Shown here: in pieces, positions 4,236-50,200 of the stretch
Layout of the letters: the number at the start of each line of letters is the position of its first letter
How positions within the stretch are numbered: the first letter of the stretch is position 1
Assembly: GCA_001769385.1 (NCBI GenBank)
Contig: MEPB01000069.1
Location: 1 to 64,000 of the forward strand
DNA: 64,000 nucleotides
Direction of reading: 5' to 3'
Origin: Bacteroidetes bacterium RIFCSPLOWO2_12_FULL_35_15
Lineage (GTDB): Bacteria > Bacteroidota > Bacteroidia > 2-12-FULL-35-15
Position numbers and translations under genes: made by a program
Notes under the pieces: model-generated
The model's input: the letters and a program-made list of their open reading frames with translations, nothing else
What the model was told of the DNA's origin: nothing
Databases searched by the model: none

Positions 4236-4250
4236 TTTATTTTATAGTAT

Positions 4251-4309
4251 TGAGATTTGAGATAAGAGTATTGAGAATCTCACATCTCACATCTCAGATC
4301 TCAGATCTA
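4251..4309 (-). repeat. Phased 7-mer inverted repeat in the rpoA-rplQ spacer
   Basis: Both arms are built of 7-base units in phase. The left arm reads TGAGATT, TGAGATA, AGAGTAT, TGAGAAT (4251-4278); the right arm reads CTCACAT twice, then CTCAGAT twice (4279-4306). The arms are complementary, so the mRNA can form a long hairpin in several registers between the two genes. Confidence 0.8.
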
Positions 4310-4313
4310 ATTT

Positions 4314-6966: not shown

Positions 6967-6975
6967 TTTTTATTT

Positions 6976-7068
6976 AATTTGATAATTTGATAATGTATAA
7001 ATTTAAAAATTAAGTATGGGTGTTTTTTAATTAGCTAATTTTCAAATTAACCAATTCCCAAATTAATT
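6976..7068 (-). repeat. Phased 8-mer inverted repeat in the rpmJ-rpsM spacer
   Basis: AATTTGAT twice and a third variant (6976-6999) face AATTTTCA, AATTAACC, AATTCCCA, AATTAATT in exact 8-base phase (7037-7068). The arms are roughly complementary (AATTTGA against TCAAATT). The array runs right up to the rpmJ stop codon. Confidence 0.75.
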
Positions 7069-7185
7069 TTACCCTTGTCTTTGTTTAAACTTAGGGTTTT
7101 TTTTGTTGATAACATACAAAACGCCATTTCTACGAACGATTTTGCAATCAACACTTCTTTTTTTAACGGATGTTCTTACTTTCAT
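7069..7185 (-). CDS. rpmJ: 50S ribosomal protein L36
   Basis: 38-residue L36, found by reading the minus strand between infA and rpsM. It starts [20 protein letters not shown] and ends [10 protein letters not shown], the usual Bacteroidota form. Only one cysteine is present (Cys14), so the zinc-ribbon ligands are lost and this is the zinc-free type. The position infA-rpmJ-rpsM is the standard one. The start is fixed by the family N-terminus and by alignment of the stop with the spacer repeat. Confidence 0.95.
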
Positions 7186-7194
7186 TGTTGTTTA

Positions 7195-7257
7195 GATTTG
7201 AGACTTGAGACCAAAGATTTGAGATTCTAATATCTCATATCTATAATCTCCTATCTG
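7195..7257 (-). repeat. Phased 7-mer inverted repeat in the infA-rpmJ spacer
   Basis: Nine consecutive 7-base units fill this spacer: GATTTGA, GACTTGA, GACCAAA, GATTTGA, GATTCTA, then ATATCTC, ATATCTA, TAATCTC, CTATCTG. The first half is G-A rich and the second half is its approximate complement, so the RNA folds back on itself. This is one of the two clearest examples in the window. Confidence 0.85.
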
Positions 7258-7260
7258 TTT

Positions 7261-7479
7261 TTATTTGTACCTATATGTAATTCTTCCTTTTGTTAGATCG
7301 TATGGCGACATTTCAATTTTTACTTTATCACCAGGTAAGATCTTAATATAATGCATTCTCATTTTACCAGAAATATGGGCTGTTATCACGTGTCCGTTTT
7401 CAAGCTCAACGCGAAACATTGCATTCGACAATGCTTCAATAATAGTTCCGTCTTGCTCGATTGACGCTTGTTTTGCCAT
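7261..7479 (-). CDS. infA: Translation initiation factor IF-1
   Basis: Binds the A site of the 30S subunit during initiation. 72 residues, exactly the normal size, a single S1-like OB fold ([17 protein letters not shown], then [19 protein letters not shown]). Sits between map and rpmJ, the usual place in the spc-alpha junction. Confidence 0.98.
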
Positions 7480-7490
7480 ATATTTTTATA

Positions 7491-7546
7491 TTCTAAACTC
7501 TTATTTCTAAATTCTAATGTTTGTTAATTTTTTTAGAATTTAGTTT
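7491..7546 (-). repeat. Phased 7-mer inverted repeat in the map-infA spacer
   Basis: Units in 7-base phase: TTCTAAA, CTCTTAT, TTCTAAA, TTCTAAT, then TTAGAAT, TTAGTTT. CTAAATTCTAA and TTAGAATTTAG form a perfect 11-bp stem. Confidence 0.8.
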
Positions 7547-7560
7547 GTTGCATTTAATTT

Positions 7561-10395: not shown

Positions 10396-10403
10396 TTTTT
10401 TTT

Positions 10404-10482
10404 AATTTGATAATTTGATAATTTGATAATTTGAAAAATTAATTAAATCATTTTCAAATTAGCACATTTTCAAATTGATTTT
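10404..10482 (-). repeat. Phased 8-mer inverted repeat in the rpsE-rpmD spacer
   Basis: AATTTGAT three times then AATTTGAA (10404-10435) faces TTTTCAAA, TTAGCACA, TTTTCAAA, TTGATTTT (10451-10482). The arms complement each other (TTTGAAAA with TTTTCAAA). It abuts the stop codon of rpsE. Confidence 0.8.
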
Positions 10483-10999: not shown

Positions 11000-11010
11000 T
11001 CTATTTATTT

Positions 11011-11066
11011 TTAGATTTAGGATTTAGGATTTAGGATTTTTCTTCCTCCTCTTCAATCTTTAATTT
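11011..11066 (-). repeat. Phased 7-mer repeat in the rplR-rpsE spacer
   Basis: TTAGATT followed by TAGGATT three times (11011-11038), then weaker 7-base units including TCAATCT and TTAATTT (11053-11066) that partly complement the first arm. Confidence 0.7.
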
Positions 11067-11074
11067 TTTAATTA

Positions 11075-12804: not shown

Positions 12805-12820
12805 TCTTTTTCTTATTTAA

Positions 12821-12876
12821 GATTTAAGATTTAAGATTTAGGATTTTAAATATCCTTATTCCTCAATCCTTAATTT
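12821..12876 (-). repeat. Phased 7-mer inverted repeat in the rplE-rpsN spacer
   Basis: Eight 7-base units in phase: GATTTAA twice, GATTTAG, GATTTTA, then AATATCC, TTATTCC, TCAATCC, TTAATTT. The first four (purine-rich) are complementary in type to the last four. Together with the infA-rpmJ spacer this is the clearest example. Confidence 0.85.
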
Positions 12877-12877
12877 T

Positions 12878-14158: not shown

Positions 14159-14170
14159 TTTTAATTTTAT

Positions 14171-14230
14171 TTCGGATTTCGTAAATTCGATTTCGGATTT
14201 TTTTAATCCTTTATCCTTTCCTTAATCCTA
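14171..14230 (-). repeat. Phased 7-mer inverted repeat in the rpsQ-rplN spacer
   Basis: TTCGGAT, TTCGTAA, ATTCGAT, TTCGGAT (14171-14198) are followed by less regular AATCCTT, TATCCTT and TCCTAT units; GGATT and AATCC arms complement each other. The rest of this 117-base spacer holds only CAATTGCAATCTGCAATC near 14251. Confidence 0.7.
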
Positions 14231-14275
14231 TTTTTATTTTTTTACTTCCGCAATTGCAATCTGCAATCAACCTTT

Positions 14276-14533: not shown

Positions 14534-14540
14534 TTTTTTT

Positions 14541-14617
14541 AGATTCAGGAATCAGGATTTGAGAATCAAGATTTTCAACATTGCTGTCTTACCTCTTGCT
14601 TCTTGCATCTTGCTTCT
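14541..14617 (-). repeat. Phased 7-mer array filling the rpmC-rpsQ spacer
   Basis: Eleven 7-base units in one phase: AGATTCA, GGAATCA, GGATTTG, AGAATCA, AGATTTT, three irregular ones, then TACCTCT, TGCTTCT, TGCATCT, TGCTTCT. The array fills nearly the whole spacer and runs into the rpmC stop codon. The two arms here are related more by period than by exact complementarity. Confidence 0.75.
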
Positions 14618-19392: not shown

Positions 19393-19409
19393 TGTTTATT
19401 AATTAATTA

Positions 19410-19489
19410 TTGATTTATTGATTTGGAGATCTGGTGAATTTTGATTCTTTATGTAAATCTCTAATTTCCTAATCTCTATTTCTCTATTT
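19410..19489 (-). repeat. Phased 8-mer repeat in the rpsJ-rplC spacer
   Basis: Ten 8-base units in phase: TTGATTTA, TTGATTTG, GAGATCTG and others on the left; TCTCTAAT, TTCCTAAT, CTCTATTT, CTCTATTT on the right. GATTTGGAGAT-type and AATCTCTAATTTCC-type arms are roughly complementary. Confidence 0.7.
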
Positions 19490-19491
19490 TT

Positions 19492-29000: not shown

Positions 29001-32000
29001 CAGTTTGCACAACAGTCCAGGAGAATGTAGTTCCTCCAACCCCACTTGATAAGGCAATTCCGGTTATGCCACCTGTACAGAATGTTTGCGATGCGGGAGT
29101 TGCTATTGCTATAGGTCTAGGGCTCACCGTAATAGTAACTGTTATAGGTGATCCAGGACAACTATTGGCAGTTGGAGTAATAGTATATACAGCTGTTCCG
29201 GCAACCGTGGATGTAGCGTTTAATGTCTGAGCAATTGTTGATCCGCTTCCGGCTGAAGCACCACTTACATTTGTTTGCACAACAGTCCAGGTAAAAGTAG
29301 TGCCGACAACAGAGCCGGAAAGAGCTATTCCTGTAATATTACCAGAACAAATTGTTTGAGAGGCTGGTGTTGCGGTTGCAATTGTTGTAGGATTTACGGT
29401 AATTGTAACAGAAATAGGAATTCCAGAGCAACCGTTTGCCAAAGGAGTAATTGTATATGTCGCTGAACCCGCTGTTGTTCCTGTTGCGGTTAATATTTGT
29501 GCTATTGTAGATCCACTACCTGCAGAAGCACCCGAAACATTGGTTTGAACTACTGTCCATGAAAATGTTGTGCCGCCTATATTACTTGTTAATGCTATGG
29601 AAGGGGCAGTTCCGGAACAAATCGTTTGAGAAGCCGGAGTTGCTGTTACTATAGGTTTAGGGTTCACTGTAATCGTAACCGAGATTGGTGCTCCCGGACA
29701 ACCACTGGCTGTTGGAGTGATCGTATATACGGCAGTTCCCGCCACAGTTGAAGTAGCTGTTAATGTTTGAGCAATTGACGTCCCGCTTCCGGCAGAAGCT
29801 CCAGAGACATTGGTCTGAACAACTGTCCATGCAAATGTGGTTGAACCTAAACTGCTTGTTAAGGATATTCCGGTTATACTTCCCGAGCATATTGTTTGAG
29901 ATGCAGGAGTTGCAGTAGCTACCGGAGGAGGATTTACGGTAATAGTAACATTGACAGGCAATCCTGCACAACCACCGGCTGTTGGAGTAATTGTATAAAC
30001 CGCTGTTCCGGCAACCGTTGAAGTAGCCGTTAATGTCTGTGCAATAGGGGTTCCGCTTCCTGCGCTTGCTCCGGAAACGTTTGTTTGAACTACAGTCCAG
30101 GCAAATGTTGTTCCACCGACATTGCTTGTTAAAGCTATTGAAGGGGCGGTTCCAGAACAAATAATTTGGGAACCCGGAGTTGCTGTTACAATAGGTTTAG
30201 GGTTCACGGTGATAGTCACATTAATTGGTGTACCCGGGCAACCGCCAGCCGTTGGAGTAATAGTATATACAGCAGTGCCTGCAGCAGCAGCAGTGGCAGT
30301 TAATGTTTGGGCAATTGAAGTTCCGCTTCCGGCAGATGCGCCAGAAACATTTGTTTGAACAACCGTCCAGGCAAATGTTGTTCCCCCTAGATTACTTGTT
30401 AAACCAATGCCGGTTATATTTCCCGAACATATTGTTTGTAATGAAGGGGTTGCTGTTGCAATAGGAGGAGGGTTTACGGTAATAGTAACATTTATAGGTA
30501 ATCCTGAACAACCACCAGCTGTTGGAGTAATAGTATATACCGCAGTTCCTGCAGCAGCAGTAGTTGCAGTTAATGTTTGCGCAATAGCAGCTCCGCTGCC
30601 TGCAGAAGCACCTGAAACATTTGTTTGAACTACTGTCCATGAAAATGTGGTACTGCCTATATTGCTAGTCAAAGCTATTGAAGGGGCGGTTCCGGAACAA
30701 ATTGTTTGAGCAGCCGGAGTTGCAGTTACAATAGGCTTTGGATTTACAGTAATCGTCACAGTAATCGGTAAGCCTGCACAACCTCCGGAAGTTGGAGTAA
30801 TCGTATATACAGCAGTTCCCGCCACCGTGGAGGTTGCTGTTAATGTTTGAGCAATTGCCGCACCGCTGCTTGCGGAAGCACCTGAAACATTCGTTTGAAC
30901 AACTGTCCAAGCAAACGTTGTTCCGCCCATATTGCTTGTTAAAGCGATTCCTGTAACATTACCCGAACAAATAGTCTGACTGGTTGGGGTTGCTGTTGCA
31001 ACAGGTGAAGGATTTACTGTTATGGTATAGGGTGCTGTACCCGAACAACCTGCATAATTAGTTGCAGTGACCGTATATGTTGTAGTGCCAGCCGGATTGG
31101 CTGTAACCGTAGTTCCTGTTGTTGGGGAAAGTCCGGTAGTTGGAGCCCAGGTATAAGTTAAATTATTTGAAAATGTTAAGGTCCAATTCAACAGTGTACC
31201 TACGTCTGAAGCAGCGTTATCCTTAACAATTAAACTCCATGTTCCATTTACTGTACATCCACTAAGTAAAGAAAGAGCTTGCTCCGGGGTAAAAGTGCCT
31301 GTAAATGCAGCTGTTCCTGCTGTAATTGCAGTTCCTGCAGTTGAAAAACAGGTGTTTGTATAATTATCCCCGGATCCACCATTATTTGAGGATAAATCTA
31401 TAATTGTTCCGCTAGGGCATCTCAAAGAAATAGACACATCACCATCCCAGCCATGAGTAATATTTAAACAAACGCTTAGCAATTGGGTTCCTACAGTACC
31501 GGGTATTCCGGAAACACTAATGTTGGAAGTGACTCCGGTAGCATTATTATCAGGAATATTATAGTTGGTATAGTTGGAAAAAGATAAGGTTGGAGTGGTG
31601 TTTGTGCCGGTTGCAGTTAAAACGGTACCTGCACCACTGGCACAAATCGTATTTGTTCCGGAAACAGAAACTGTTGGAGGAGCACTAACTGTCTGGAAGT
31701 AAGTGGTTGTTAGAGTTGCTCCGCATGCACCTGTTATGGTAACAGAATAAGTAGTGGAAGCTGATGCAGTATAAGTCGCACTCACTGTGCCCTGTCCGCT
31801 TACAGGCGCAGGTGACCAGGAGTAGGTGAAAGGGCCGGTACCTGAAGCATTGGCATTTAGTGTAAACGATTGACCTGTACATAAAGTTGAACTGGCTGAG
31901 GAGGTGACATTCACAGTTTGAACTCCTGCAGTTGCCTGGACGGTATAATTACAATCATTCCCGTCCACACCATCAACCATGATATAATAAGTTTGGCCAA

Positions 32001-47262: not shown

Positions 47263-50200
47263 TTAGTTTCTTATTAGTTGAAGATATCCATTGTGTACTT
47301 CTTCCTCTTTAGCAGGATCTAATGGTTTGACTTTAATTAGGTAATAGTAGGTTCCGGATGGTGAAGCAATCCCGGCATTTGTCCTGCCGTTCCATCCACC
47401 ATTAACAGCATTCCATTCATATAATTTCAATCCCCAACGGTCATAAATTGATGCTTCGATATTTTCTACTCCGGTAGAGGTAACAAAAAATAAATCATTT
47501 GTTCCATCTCCATCAGGTGTAAATATATTTGGAATCATTAAAAAATAATCATCAAAAATAGTGATCACAAATTCAGCTGTGTCGGGACATTGATTGTTGT
47601 AGGATGCGATCAAAACAACAGTATATGTTCCTGGCGCAGTATAAATATCGCTCGGGTCGGTTAATGTGGAGGATTGATTATTACCAAATGTCCAGGAGTA
47701 AGTATTTGCATTTTGACTACCATTTGTAAAATTGACAGTTAAGGGAGGAACCCCTGTTAATGGGTTTGCTGTGAATGATGCGATTGGAAATGGAGTATTC
47801 GTTACAGAAATATTATCAGTAGCAGTACAACCATTGGATGGATCTGTAATTGTCAAGGTGTACAAGCCCGCTGAATTTATTGTGGGAGTAGAAGTTGTAC
47901 TTCCCGAAACAATCCCTGGTCCGCTCCAACTATAATTTACACCTGCAGTGGTAGAAGAACCATTAAGATTCAAGGAAGTTATCACACAATTTAGTGTAGT
48001 ATCCAAGCCTGCATTTACATCAGGAGGTGTCGTATTACTTGTTACAATAACAGTAGCTGTATTTGTACAACCATTTACAGCATCAGTAGCCGTTACAACA
48101 TATGTACCGCCTGTAGTAACTGTTGCAGGATCGGCAGCATTTACCAAAGTACCTCCATTCCAAACCATTGCATTTCCTGCACTGGTACCGGTCAGGGTTG
48201 CTATTGGTGTTGTGCAGCTAATGTTGTTATTACTTGTTGCTGTAACTGTAGGAAGAGTTGTATTGGCGGTGATAGTAACCGAATCTGTCGAAGTACATCC
48301 ATTTGCACCATCCGTAGCAGTTACGGTATATGTTCCTGCAGCAGTAACTGTAGCCGGGTCAGGGGCGTTTGTCAATGCTCCGCCATTCCATACCATCGTA
48401 CTTCCTGCACTGTTACCCGTCAGAGTGGAGCTTGGTGTTGAACAGGTAATGTTATTATTGCCGGATGCTGTTAGAGTGGGTGGTGTGGTATTTCCTGTAA
48501 TTGTTATCGAATCGGTATTTATACATCCATTTACAGCATCAGTAACTGTAAGCGTATAAGTTCCGGCTGTAGTAACTGTTGCAGGATTTGGTTCATTTAT
48601 CAATACTCCCCCATTCCATACAATTGTATTTCCGGTACTGGTGCCTGTTAATATTGCACTAGGCGTGATACAGGAGATATTATTATTACTGGATGTGCTG
48701 ACAGTTGGTGGGGTTGTGTTTCCTGTAATTGTAACCGAATCAATAGTTGTACATCCATTTGCGGAATCTGTAACAGTAACTGTATAGGTGCCAGCTGCAC
48801 TTACTGTAGCTGGGTTTGCGGCATTAACCAAAATGCCTCCATTCCAAACAATGGTATTTCCTGAACTGTTTCCGGTTAATATGGCACTTGTTGTAATACA
48901 AGAAATATTATTGTTACCAGACGCAGTTACGACAGGAGGGACATTGTTCGAATTCACAGTAACGCTATCAATTGATGAACAGCCGGAACTATTATCTGTA
49001 ACTGTTAAGGTATAAGTACCAGCTGCATCCGCAGTAGCAATATTAGAATTGATACCGGATGTTATATTACCTCCCGATGTGCTCCATGCATAAGAAATAT
49101 CCGGACCAGCATCAGAACTCGAACCGTCAAGTGTAATTGTTAATGCAGTACAGGTAAGACCTGATGTGGGAGCGATTGAATCAAATGGGTAGGGTTTTAC
49201 AATAATAGGCAAATTAAATAGTTTGGAACATCCATCACTACTTATGGTCACATAATATGCTGTGGAAGCAGTTAAGGTTTGTGTAATTGTATTACTTGAA
49301 GAAACGATAGGAGACCAACTATATGTATATGTTCCATCTCCTCCACTTGGTGTTAAAGTTACCGTTACAGGGGTATTAATACAAACGGTATCATTAGGTA
49401 AAAAACTTTGACTAAGAGTTATTGGGTTTGCAGAAACATTTCCCGTTAATGCAACCAAACTACTTGGAGTACACCCGGCTACATCCGATTGAACATAAAT
49501 GGTGTAAGTACCTCCTAATGATCCTATGTTTTGTCCATAAGATAAACTGCTTCCGGATTGCATCAAAATGGTTCCGGCAATGTCAGAATACCAATTGTAA
49601 TTTGTAACACCGGCAACCGGATTAATATTTACAAATACAATACCTGTATCACAGGAGGTAACTGAAACAGGAGCAGGAGCTTGTATTGCAGTTGGTGTGA
49701 CAGAAACAGGTGTGATTGTGCTGGAACAACCATCGCTATTAGTAGCTTGTAAATACACGGTATAAGCACTTGTAGTTAATAAATTTGCTGTTGTGTAAGT
49801 AGTTCCTGACCCCAGCAGTGTACCGCTGACTGCCGCATCATACCATGAAAAAGATGACCCGGAAGGAGCCGTAGCTGTAAAAGTAGCTGCTCCACCTAAA
49901 CAAACAGGTGTTACAGTAGCTGTTGGTGCAGCAGGTATAGGATTTACAGTTACGGTTTGAGTAATAGGAGCTAATGGTCCACAACACGTTGATGAAATTG
50001 TTAATGTAACAGTATATGTAATAGCTGTAGAACCAGTATTTGAAAACGTGATGGAAGTATTATCTAATGTTGGTGTAGCTATGGTTGCAACTGGTAAAAC
50101 GGACCATAAATAACTAAAGCCGGGTGTTCCTACAGCTGATGCCGCAAATTGAGCAGCACCGGGACATAAAGAAGTTGTAGAGGCCAGTATTGTCCCGGTA

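Follow-up and report, generated by a model that had tools for sequence, protein, structure and literature searches.

The S10-spc-alpha ribosomal operon lies on the minus strand of the window, i.e., the first 64 kb of contig C69 in the 5.39-Mb genome G000, in an AT-rich region (window GC 36%). In this operon infA (7261-7479, minus strand) and rpmJ (7069-7185, minus strand) flank a spacer of 75 nt (7186-7260, minus strand), which reads AAACAGATAGGAGATTATAGATATGAGATATTAGAATCTCAAATCTTTGGTCTCAAGTCTCAAATCTAAACAACA in the sense direction. The identities of infA, rpmJ, rpoA, and rplE were assigned via NCBIfam, and the remaining gene names of the operon were read from translations.

Positions 7195-7257 were described in an earlier, sequence-only reading as nine exact 7-base units, and the division into nine holds: GATTTGA GACTTGA GACCAAA GATTTGA GATTCTA ATATCTC ATATCTA TAATCTC CTATCTG. 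The word exact applies to their length only, as a single unit is present twice in identical form. The phased, two-armed design proposed there is real, far above chance, and recurrent. Lag-7 matches in the spacer amount to 40/68, compared with 19.9 ± 3.7 in 2000 dinucleotide shuffles, none of which reached as high, and lag 14 gives 31/61 (p 0.0005); apart from these two, no lag from 4 to 15 is significant at p 0.05. The 7-nt periodicity holds for each arm separately (18/29, p 0.006, and 17/26, p 0.0002). Folded as RNA, the spacer forms one hairpin of 21 pairs with imperfect inverted arms (-22.5 kcal/mol, z -4.5), and none of 200 shuffles is equally stable; folded as DNA it gives -8.0 (z -2.0). 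In the sense direction the 5' arm consists of GATNTGA-like units (7232-7256, minus strand; spacer positions 5-29 on the paired side of the minimum free energy, MFE, structure) and the 3' arm of TCTCAAA-like units (7201-7225, minus strand; spacer positions 36-60), the latter ending 15 nt before the rpmJ start codon. Rfam returned no match at gathering score in window positions 1-24000.

Phased spacers in the operon, the genome, and the genus

The infA-rpmJ spacer belongs to a class of quasi-palindromes, phased at 7 or 8 nt, that fill co-directional operon gaps. Within the operon (all on the minus strand), spacers phased at 7 nt are rpoA-rplQ (4236-4313; a hairpin of GAGATCT and TCTCAAA, lag 7 20/21, MFE -23, z -3.9), map-infA (7480-7560; arms ATTCTAA and TTAGAAT, TRF period 7, two-arm score 22), rplE-rpsN (12805-12877; AAGGATT and ATCTTAA, lag 7 20/21, z -1.4), rpsQ-rplN (14159-14275; imperfect, TRF period 7, two-arm score 21), rpmC-rpsQ (14534-14615; AGCAAGA and TCTTGAT, lag 7 17/21, z -0.9), and rplR-rpsE (11000-11074), an (ATCCTAA)3 array with a degenerate 5' arm (lag 7 19/21) that folds no better than its shuffles (z 0.03). 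Those phased at 8 nt are rpmJ-rpsM (6967-7068; TAATTTGA and TCAAATTA, by TRF period 8 and by sequence), rpsE-rpmD (10396-10480; a hairpin of AATTTGAA and ATCAAATT, lag 8 21/21, z -2.9), and rpsJ-rplC (19393-19491; AATTAGAG and CTCCAAAT, lag 8 17/21). The six of these with at least 17/21 lag matches each have a word of their own: GAGATCT, ATCCTAA, ATCTTAA, AGCAAGA, and the 8-mers AATTTGAA and AATTAGAG. The infA-rpmJ spacer is not the cleanest example, as had been supposed: its best 21-nt window reaches 15/21, compared with 17-21/21 in six other spacers of the same operon.

Two further kinds of sequence were observed in passing. The genus spacers of rpsQ-rplN, rplB-rpsS, rpsN-rpsH, rpsM-rpsK, and rpsL-rpsG (L159-L178) include non-phased ones in which both sequence and hairpins are conserved genus-wide, with motifs such as GCGCTGACT, GTTTAATGG..TTCACAAC, and GTTAACGTTAC..GTTAACGATCA; these are possibly ribosomal-protein leader motifs, to which the absence of Rfam matches in window 1-24000 also applies. 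Window positions 29083-31017 and 48059-48918 contain long tandem repeats (about 270 and 228 nt, respectively), which are probably coding repeats of large secreted or adhesin-like proteins.

In the G000 genome, windows with at least 17/21 matches at lag 7 or lag 8 occur in 6 of 23 co-directional operon spacers versus 8 of 436 elsewhere (odds ratio 19, p 2e-5). The 436 are the co-directional spacers found outside the operon in a genome sample of 1.18 Mb; several sampled contigs had been picked for holding matches, which works against the operon contrast, and one of the eight is a plain GA run. At the strong threshold, the lag-7 and lag-8 runs of this sample number 14 in tandem spacers and none in 78 convergent or 105 divergent spacers. 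A BLAST search of the infA-rpmJ spacer against its own genome found 29 places at E up to 10, and 22 of the 27 classified loci are co-directional spacers, the other five being coding according to a simple gene finder; the matches include the atpF-atpH, atpA-atpG, atpD-atpC, and rpsB-tsf spacers (gene names read from translations). Over three BLAST match sets, 64 of 68 intergenic places are co-directional, in sets that are biased by their queries and with orientation classing limited to loci longer than 2900 nt (27/28, 26/30, and 24/30). Please note that the gene finder overlooks very small genes; rpmJ is missed in much of the survey, so 6967-7260 counts there as one joined spacer. Two unusual forms were seen among the repeats of this genome. 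Locus L123:513-691 is an outlier, a short spacer that contains a long GA dinucleotide run with short inverted CAGCTG-like ends on either side. Arrays of GATGTGG- or GATGTGA-like units up to about 150 nt long, at C105:15453, C69:69910, and C77:6411 (L138, L146, and L141), are one-armed, and no matching opposite arm was found nearby.

The class extends across the genus. The ribosomal operons of 21 genus genomes gave 267 spacers with a length of 60-200 nt (shorter and longer ones were dropped). Of these, 39 have runs of at least 17/21 at lag 7 and 42 have them at lag 8, with 0.4 expected each from dinucleotide shuffles. In the same set, lag 14 occurs in 20, lag 15 in 9, and lag 4 in 3, and there are no such runs at lags 5, 6, or 9-13. 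For the comparisons of phased with non-phased spacers below, 21 of the 267 with intermediate lag scores were excluded. A generic two-arm detector was also tried and set aside in favor of lag runs, as at lower thresholds it was flooded by AT-rich chance matches (156 spacers at a score of at least 20). The ribosomal loci of 80 named Bacteroidota records contain 2135 spacers, 199 of them at least 60 nt long; among the latter, 20 have lag-7 runs and 21 have lag-8 runs, with 0.3 expected; at least five of these records (L032-L036) appear to repeat genus genomes already counted, and the runs are also found in other Bacteroidota records, e.g., L038, L073, L087, L094, L097, and L108. Exact lag-7 or lag-8 arrays in the genus and 80-record sets together are all intergenic (36/36), and lags 5, 6, and 9-12 together gave one.

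Hairpin anatomy and arrays inside reading frames

In 133 hairpins with arms of at least 18 nt, the median distances are 5 nt from stop codon to hairpin and 13 nt from hairpin to start codon, with a median loop of 11 nt. Where the arms are at least 20 nt long (119 hairpins), their best periods are 8/8 in 57, 7/7 in 52, and other in 10, i.e., the arms agree in 109 of 119, an agreement partly forced by complementarity. Regularity is higher in the 3' arm in 76 cases and in the 5' arm in 35, with eight ties. C is scarce in the 5' arm and G in the 3' arm, and the G content of 3' halves is 0.044 in phased versus 0.124 in non-phased spacers. The commonest mismatch between arms is A opposite A (297 versus 218 expected), which fits selection for an A-rich stretch ahead of start codons. 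There is no wobble preference on the transcribed strand, with GU 91 (96 expected) versus AC 122 (108 expected).

Neither 7 nor 8 is divisible by 3, so such arrays put stops in every frame. All-frame stop punctuation was rejected as a specific property, however, since the fraction of spacers with a stop in each frame inside the first 40 nt is 0.40 for phased versus 0.38 for non-phased ones (shuffled controls, 0.27 and 0.28, respectively). The idea that folding out the hairpin restores the spacing of hairpin-less relatives was likewise dropped, with no correlation over 19 loci (Spearman 0.11, p 0.67).

The same arrays are also found inside genes. An exact 24-nt TCTCAAA array is present in 15 of 295 class genomes, and a reversed control pattern in one. 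From 20 array loci taken (three overlap others), six distinct places are in co-directional spacers, including rplE-rpsN twice and atpA-atpG (names read from translations). In 11 unrelated open frames of 229-887 residues (L286-L292, L297, L298, L301, and L303) the array is in frame and encodes LKSQISNLKSQ-like peptide. On its coding strand a TCTCAAA array is free of stop codons in all three frames and so can live in genes. Three array-bearing fragments were submitted to a solved-structure search, which supports the identification of one as a valyl-tRNA synthetase and of another as a BioA aminotransferase, with the match starting where the array ends; the third gave no match. No description of the peptide ISNLKSQISNLK was found in the open-licence literature, which is weak evidence of absence.

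Change between relatives

At infA-rpmJ the same hairpin is present in G000, G014, G016, and G017 (75, 75, 75, and 78 nt) and is degenerate in G012 and G009. Other types occupy the site in G029 and G007 (AGTTCAA) and in G006 and G013 (GGAGTTA), and in 15 of 27 readable relatives the spacer is shorter than 45 nt; G020 and G011 were left out, as no rpmJ was found adjoining infA. The sequence-only reading had expected whole 7-base units to be gained or lost by the two arms together. The four alignable orthologues differ by substitutions, and in 51 pairs that share period 7 the differences in length are not enriched at multiples of 7 (under a permissive alignment). It had also counted single-base change with loss of the phase as evidence against the design; single-base changes do dominate, but the phase is kept because the indels, which are few and lie in the loop or flanks, avoid the arms. 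A more striking mode of change was not foreseen: the whole hairpin is swapped for another unit family or is absent. Close relatives differ by presence versus absence of a phased spacer, at 75 versus 11 nt, 81 versus 3, and 73 versus 9.

This turnover is uneven. The sisters G013 and G014 (94.1% identical over ten core genes) use unrelated words at three loci (infA-rpmJ, rpoA-rplQ, and rpsE-rpmD); map-infA also differs between them, while the majority of their other spacers are almost identical. The infA-rpmJ hairpin is conserved at 87-93% between some distant species. The rpsE-rpmD spacer is 95% identical between G002 and G016, whose core genes are 82% identical and whose eight adjacent 60-nt coding blocks are 70-88% identical; rpoA-rplQ is 89% identical between G008 and G013 (core 80%), and map-infA 91% between G013 and G016 (core 86%). 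When spacers at the same locus are compared in 581 pairs, their similarity shows almost no dependence on gene identity (Spearman 0.10). Near-identity in distant species together with unrelated words in sisters points to the exchange of very short tracts. Part of the near-identity could stem from an ancient hairpin being under strong constraint, but this would not account for the unrelated words of the sisters as well.

Words are also shared within genomes. Word similarity between different loci of one genome is 0.194 versus 0.138 ± 0.005 in permutations (0/1000 as high), and dinucleotide-shuffled spacers give 0.180 versus 0.165, so roughly one quarter of this excess (0.015 of 0.056) is explained by composition. 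Non-phased spacers show no excess of within-genome word sharing. In two cases, picked by eye, the phased spacer of G000 looks like local growth, resembling repeats of the pre-start sequence at a site where a relative's spacer is short: at rplE-rpsN the spacer of G035 ends in AAAATCTTAAATAAGAAAAAGA, where G000 has more ATCTTAA units, and rplR-rpsE is similar in G031 compared with G000.

The arms covary. In 74 orthologue pairs at 15 loci there are 42 double changes, 29 of them from one Watson-Crick pair to another, compared with 22.3 and 11.4 when permuted within comparisons (maxima of 34 and 20 in 500 permutations). Repeats make alignments ambiguous, so the covariation is perhaps inflated, and the pairs share history, so the effect size is soft. 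Covariation is predicted equally by RNA selection and by templated copying. Against strand-specific shuffles, phased spacers are better structured in sense (z -3.07) than in antisense (z -2.55; 88 to 51, p 6.5e-5), an advantage that is clearer in non-phased spacers (-1.90 versus -0.96). Raw fold energies are lower for antisense in 83 of 136 and for sense in 53, which at face value would argue against an RNA function; we attribute this bias to composition. The sign reverses with strand-specific shuffles, and neither result is decisive. The strand data leave room for an RNA role.

Origin and possible role of the phased hairpins

The strict 7- or 8-nt step, the word sharing within genomes, the patchiness, and the in-gene arrays together argue for a writing process at the DNA level, and the co-directional preference, the covariation, and the G-poor 3' arms for a filter, possibly a benefit, at the transcript level. 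The phased hairpins thus probably reflect a DNA copying process and not special control of one gene. The account we tentatively prefer, at somewhat less than an even chance, combines DNA-level slippage with hairpin-templated copying, whose products are kept in the gaps of operons as RNA hairpins that are harmless or useful. Short local sequences would be amplified in DNA by 7- or 8-nt steps through replication slippage, and hairpin-templated copying (template switching) would write or correct the opposite arm, giving the two arms the same period and word. Words would be copied between loci of one genome and may be exchanged between species over very short tracts. Arrays would persist mainly where an insert between stop and start codon is tolerated, a presumed translational filter; with the spacer folded as an RNA hairpin, little G in its 3' arm, and A-rich sequence ahead of the start, both genes would stay translatable. 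Mutational origin alone leaves the co-directional restriction (64/68) and the operon enrichment (6/23 versus 8/436) unexplained, and unit-step indels, the classic mark of slippage, show no excess between orthologues. The ribosomal operon is normally strongly expressed.

The next reading, possible but less probable, is that these are selected intercistronic RNA hairpins, which insulate or couple the translation of neighbors or protect the polycistronic mRNA, the 7- or 8-nt phase being a by-product of how the hairpins arose. It would account for strong-threshold runs in co-directional spacers only (14 tandem, 0 convergent or divergent), for the ribosomal-operon enrichment, the arm covariation, the sense strand being better structured once composition is controlled, and the 87-93% conservation of the infA-rpmJ hairpin in some distant species. 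It fits poorly, however, with presence or absence between close relatives (75 versus 11 nt, 81 versus 3, 73 versus 9), with the lack of a wobble preference (GU 91 versus AC 122), with window arrays that barely fold (z 0.03 and -0.9), with the same arrays within reading frames, and with spacings that do not track between folded-out and hairpin-less forms (Spearman 0.11, 19 loci).

A mobile or REP-like palindromic element copied into spacers, e.g., by a REP-associated Y1 transposase, is unlikely. Family members are dispersed over many operons among the matches listed, near-identity between species is patchy, and Y1_Tnp is found in 29 of 36 genus genomes. Yet the own genome holds no near-identical full-length copy (the next best is 86% over 41 of 75 nt), there are many words and two periods, fixed termini were not seen, and G006 and G015 have phased spacers in assemblies (89-90% complete) where Y1_Tnp was not found. 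We regard as similarly improbable a self-propagating 7/8-nt repeat system, in which dedicated templated DNA synthesis would draw on a small set of words, placing them in operon gaps as pairs of inverted arrays and in protein-coding genes as arrays in frame, and in which the repeats would spread between loci and species without transposon ends; the writer, an equally unlikely part of the same reading, could be a reverse transcriptase or a polymerase that carries a short template of its own, comparable in principle to telomerase.

The sequence-only reading had suggested that the spacer might serve separate control of the tiny rpmJ gene. A translational control element specific to rpmJ would agree with a hairpin end 15 nt before the rpmJ start codon, but the design recurs in many spacers and operons (other spacers of this operon as well as atpF-H, atpA-G, atpD-C, and rpsB-tsf), 15 of 27 readable relatives have less than 45 nt before rpmJ, and the closest relative, G023 (91% core-gene identity), has an infA-rpmJ spacer of 11 nt and no hairpin; the distribution largely refutes such an element, which we consider very improbable. 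Intrinsic terminators or attenuators between genes are slightly less probable still: stable hairpins are present in operon spacers, but the sense sequence after them is A-rich, not T-rich, the phased spacers contain no sense-strand terminator-like site, and the region as a whole has 9 such sites versus 7.6 expected, no excess. Chance periodicity, for which the AT-rich region (GC 36%) might speak, is already refuted by 0.4 of 267 in shuffles versus the 39 and 42 observed, with other lags at chance.

Relation to known repeats and significance

In PMC4679880 (citing Mrazek et al. 2007), 7 nt is given as the most abundant unit class of tandem repeats termed LSSRs, and the cause proposed is polymerase slippage, 7 nt being perhaps the stretch that contacts the polymerase. 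Like heptanucleotide LSSRs, the infA-rpmJ class has tandem 7-nt units beyond chance; it differs from them in its two inverted arms that share a period, in 8 nt being as common as 7, in its imperfect units, and in its location in operon spacers. It is not a plain member of the LSSRs, since whole-unit length variation was not found (51 pairs, permissive alignment). The same source reports heptamer repeats of TAACTGA, sporadic in marine Beggiatoaceae, cyanobacteria, and a few Bacteroidetes, mostly intergenic and just upstream of start codons, those of ribosomal protein genes included. Both are sporadic 7-nt tandem units in intergenic positions before starts, ribosomal protein genes among them; TAACTGA, however, is one word in direct repeats (with one inverted case) and shows 7-nt indels between strains, whereas our class has many words, two-armed hairpins, and change by substitution and whole-hairpin replacement. 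Quasipalindrome template switching is named in PMC4060949 as a possible cause of excess inverted repeats. Mutation templated in this way would perfect imperfect inverted repeats and couple both arms, but alone does not predict tandem units of 7 or 8 nt. REP/BIME sequences are likewise dispersed intergenic palindromes in operons; our class differs in having two fixed periods and neither a fixed consensus nor near-identical copies. The cyanobacterial STRR heptanucleotide repeats are short tandem 7-nt repeats between genes, in direct arrays, and we know of no description of them as phased palindromes. No description of two-armed hairpins phased at 7 or 8 nt was found for operons of Bacteroidota in the open-licence literature, which is weak evidence of absence. 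Heptanucleotide arrays as such are already known, and the two-armed, phase-locked, many-worded operon-spacer form appears to be a variation on them.

The finding touches the open question of why heptanucleotide repeats dominate among the tandem repeats of bacteria. The genus offers a natural experiment for it, with orthologous slots, fast turnover, and an empty-slot state, in which sisters at 94% identity already differ in word, and the same arrays surface within enzymes as the peptide KSQISNL. Translation initiation in Bacteroidota proceeds largely without Shine-Dalgarno pairing, and the phased spacers, usually ignored, may set the geometry from stop codon to start codon.
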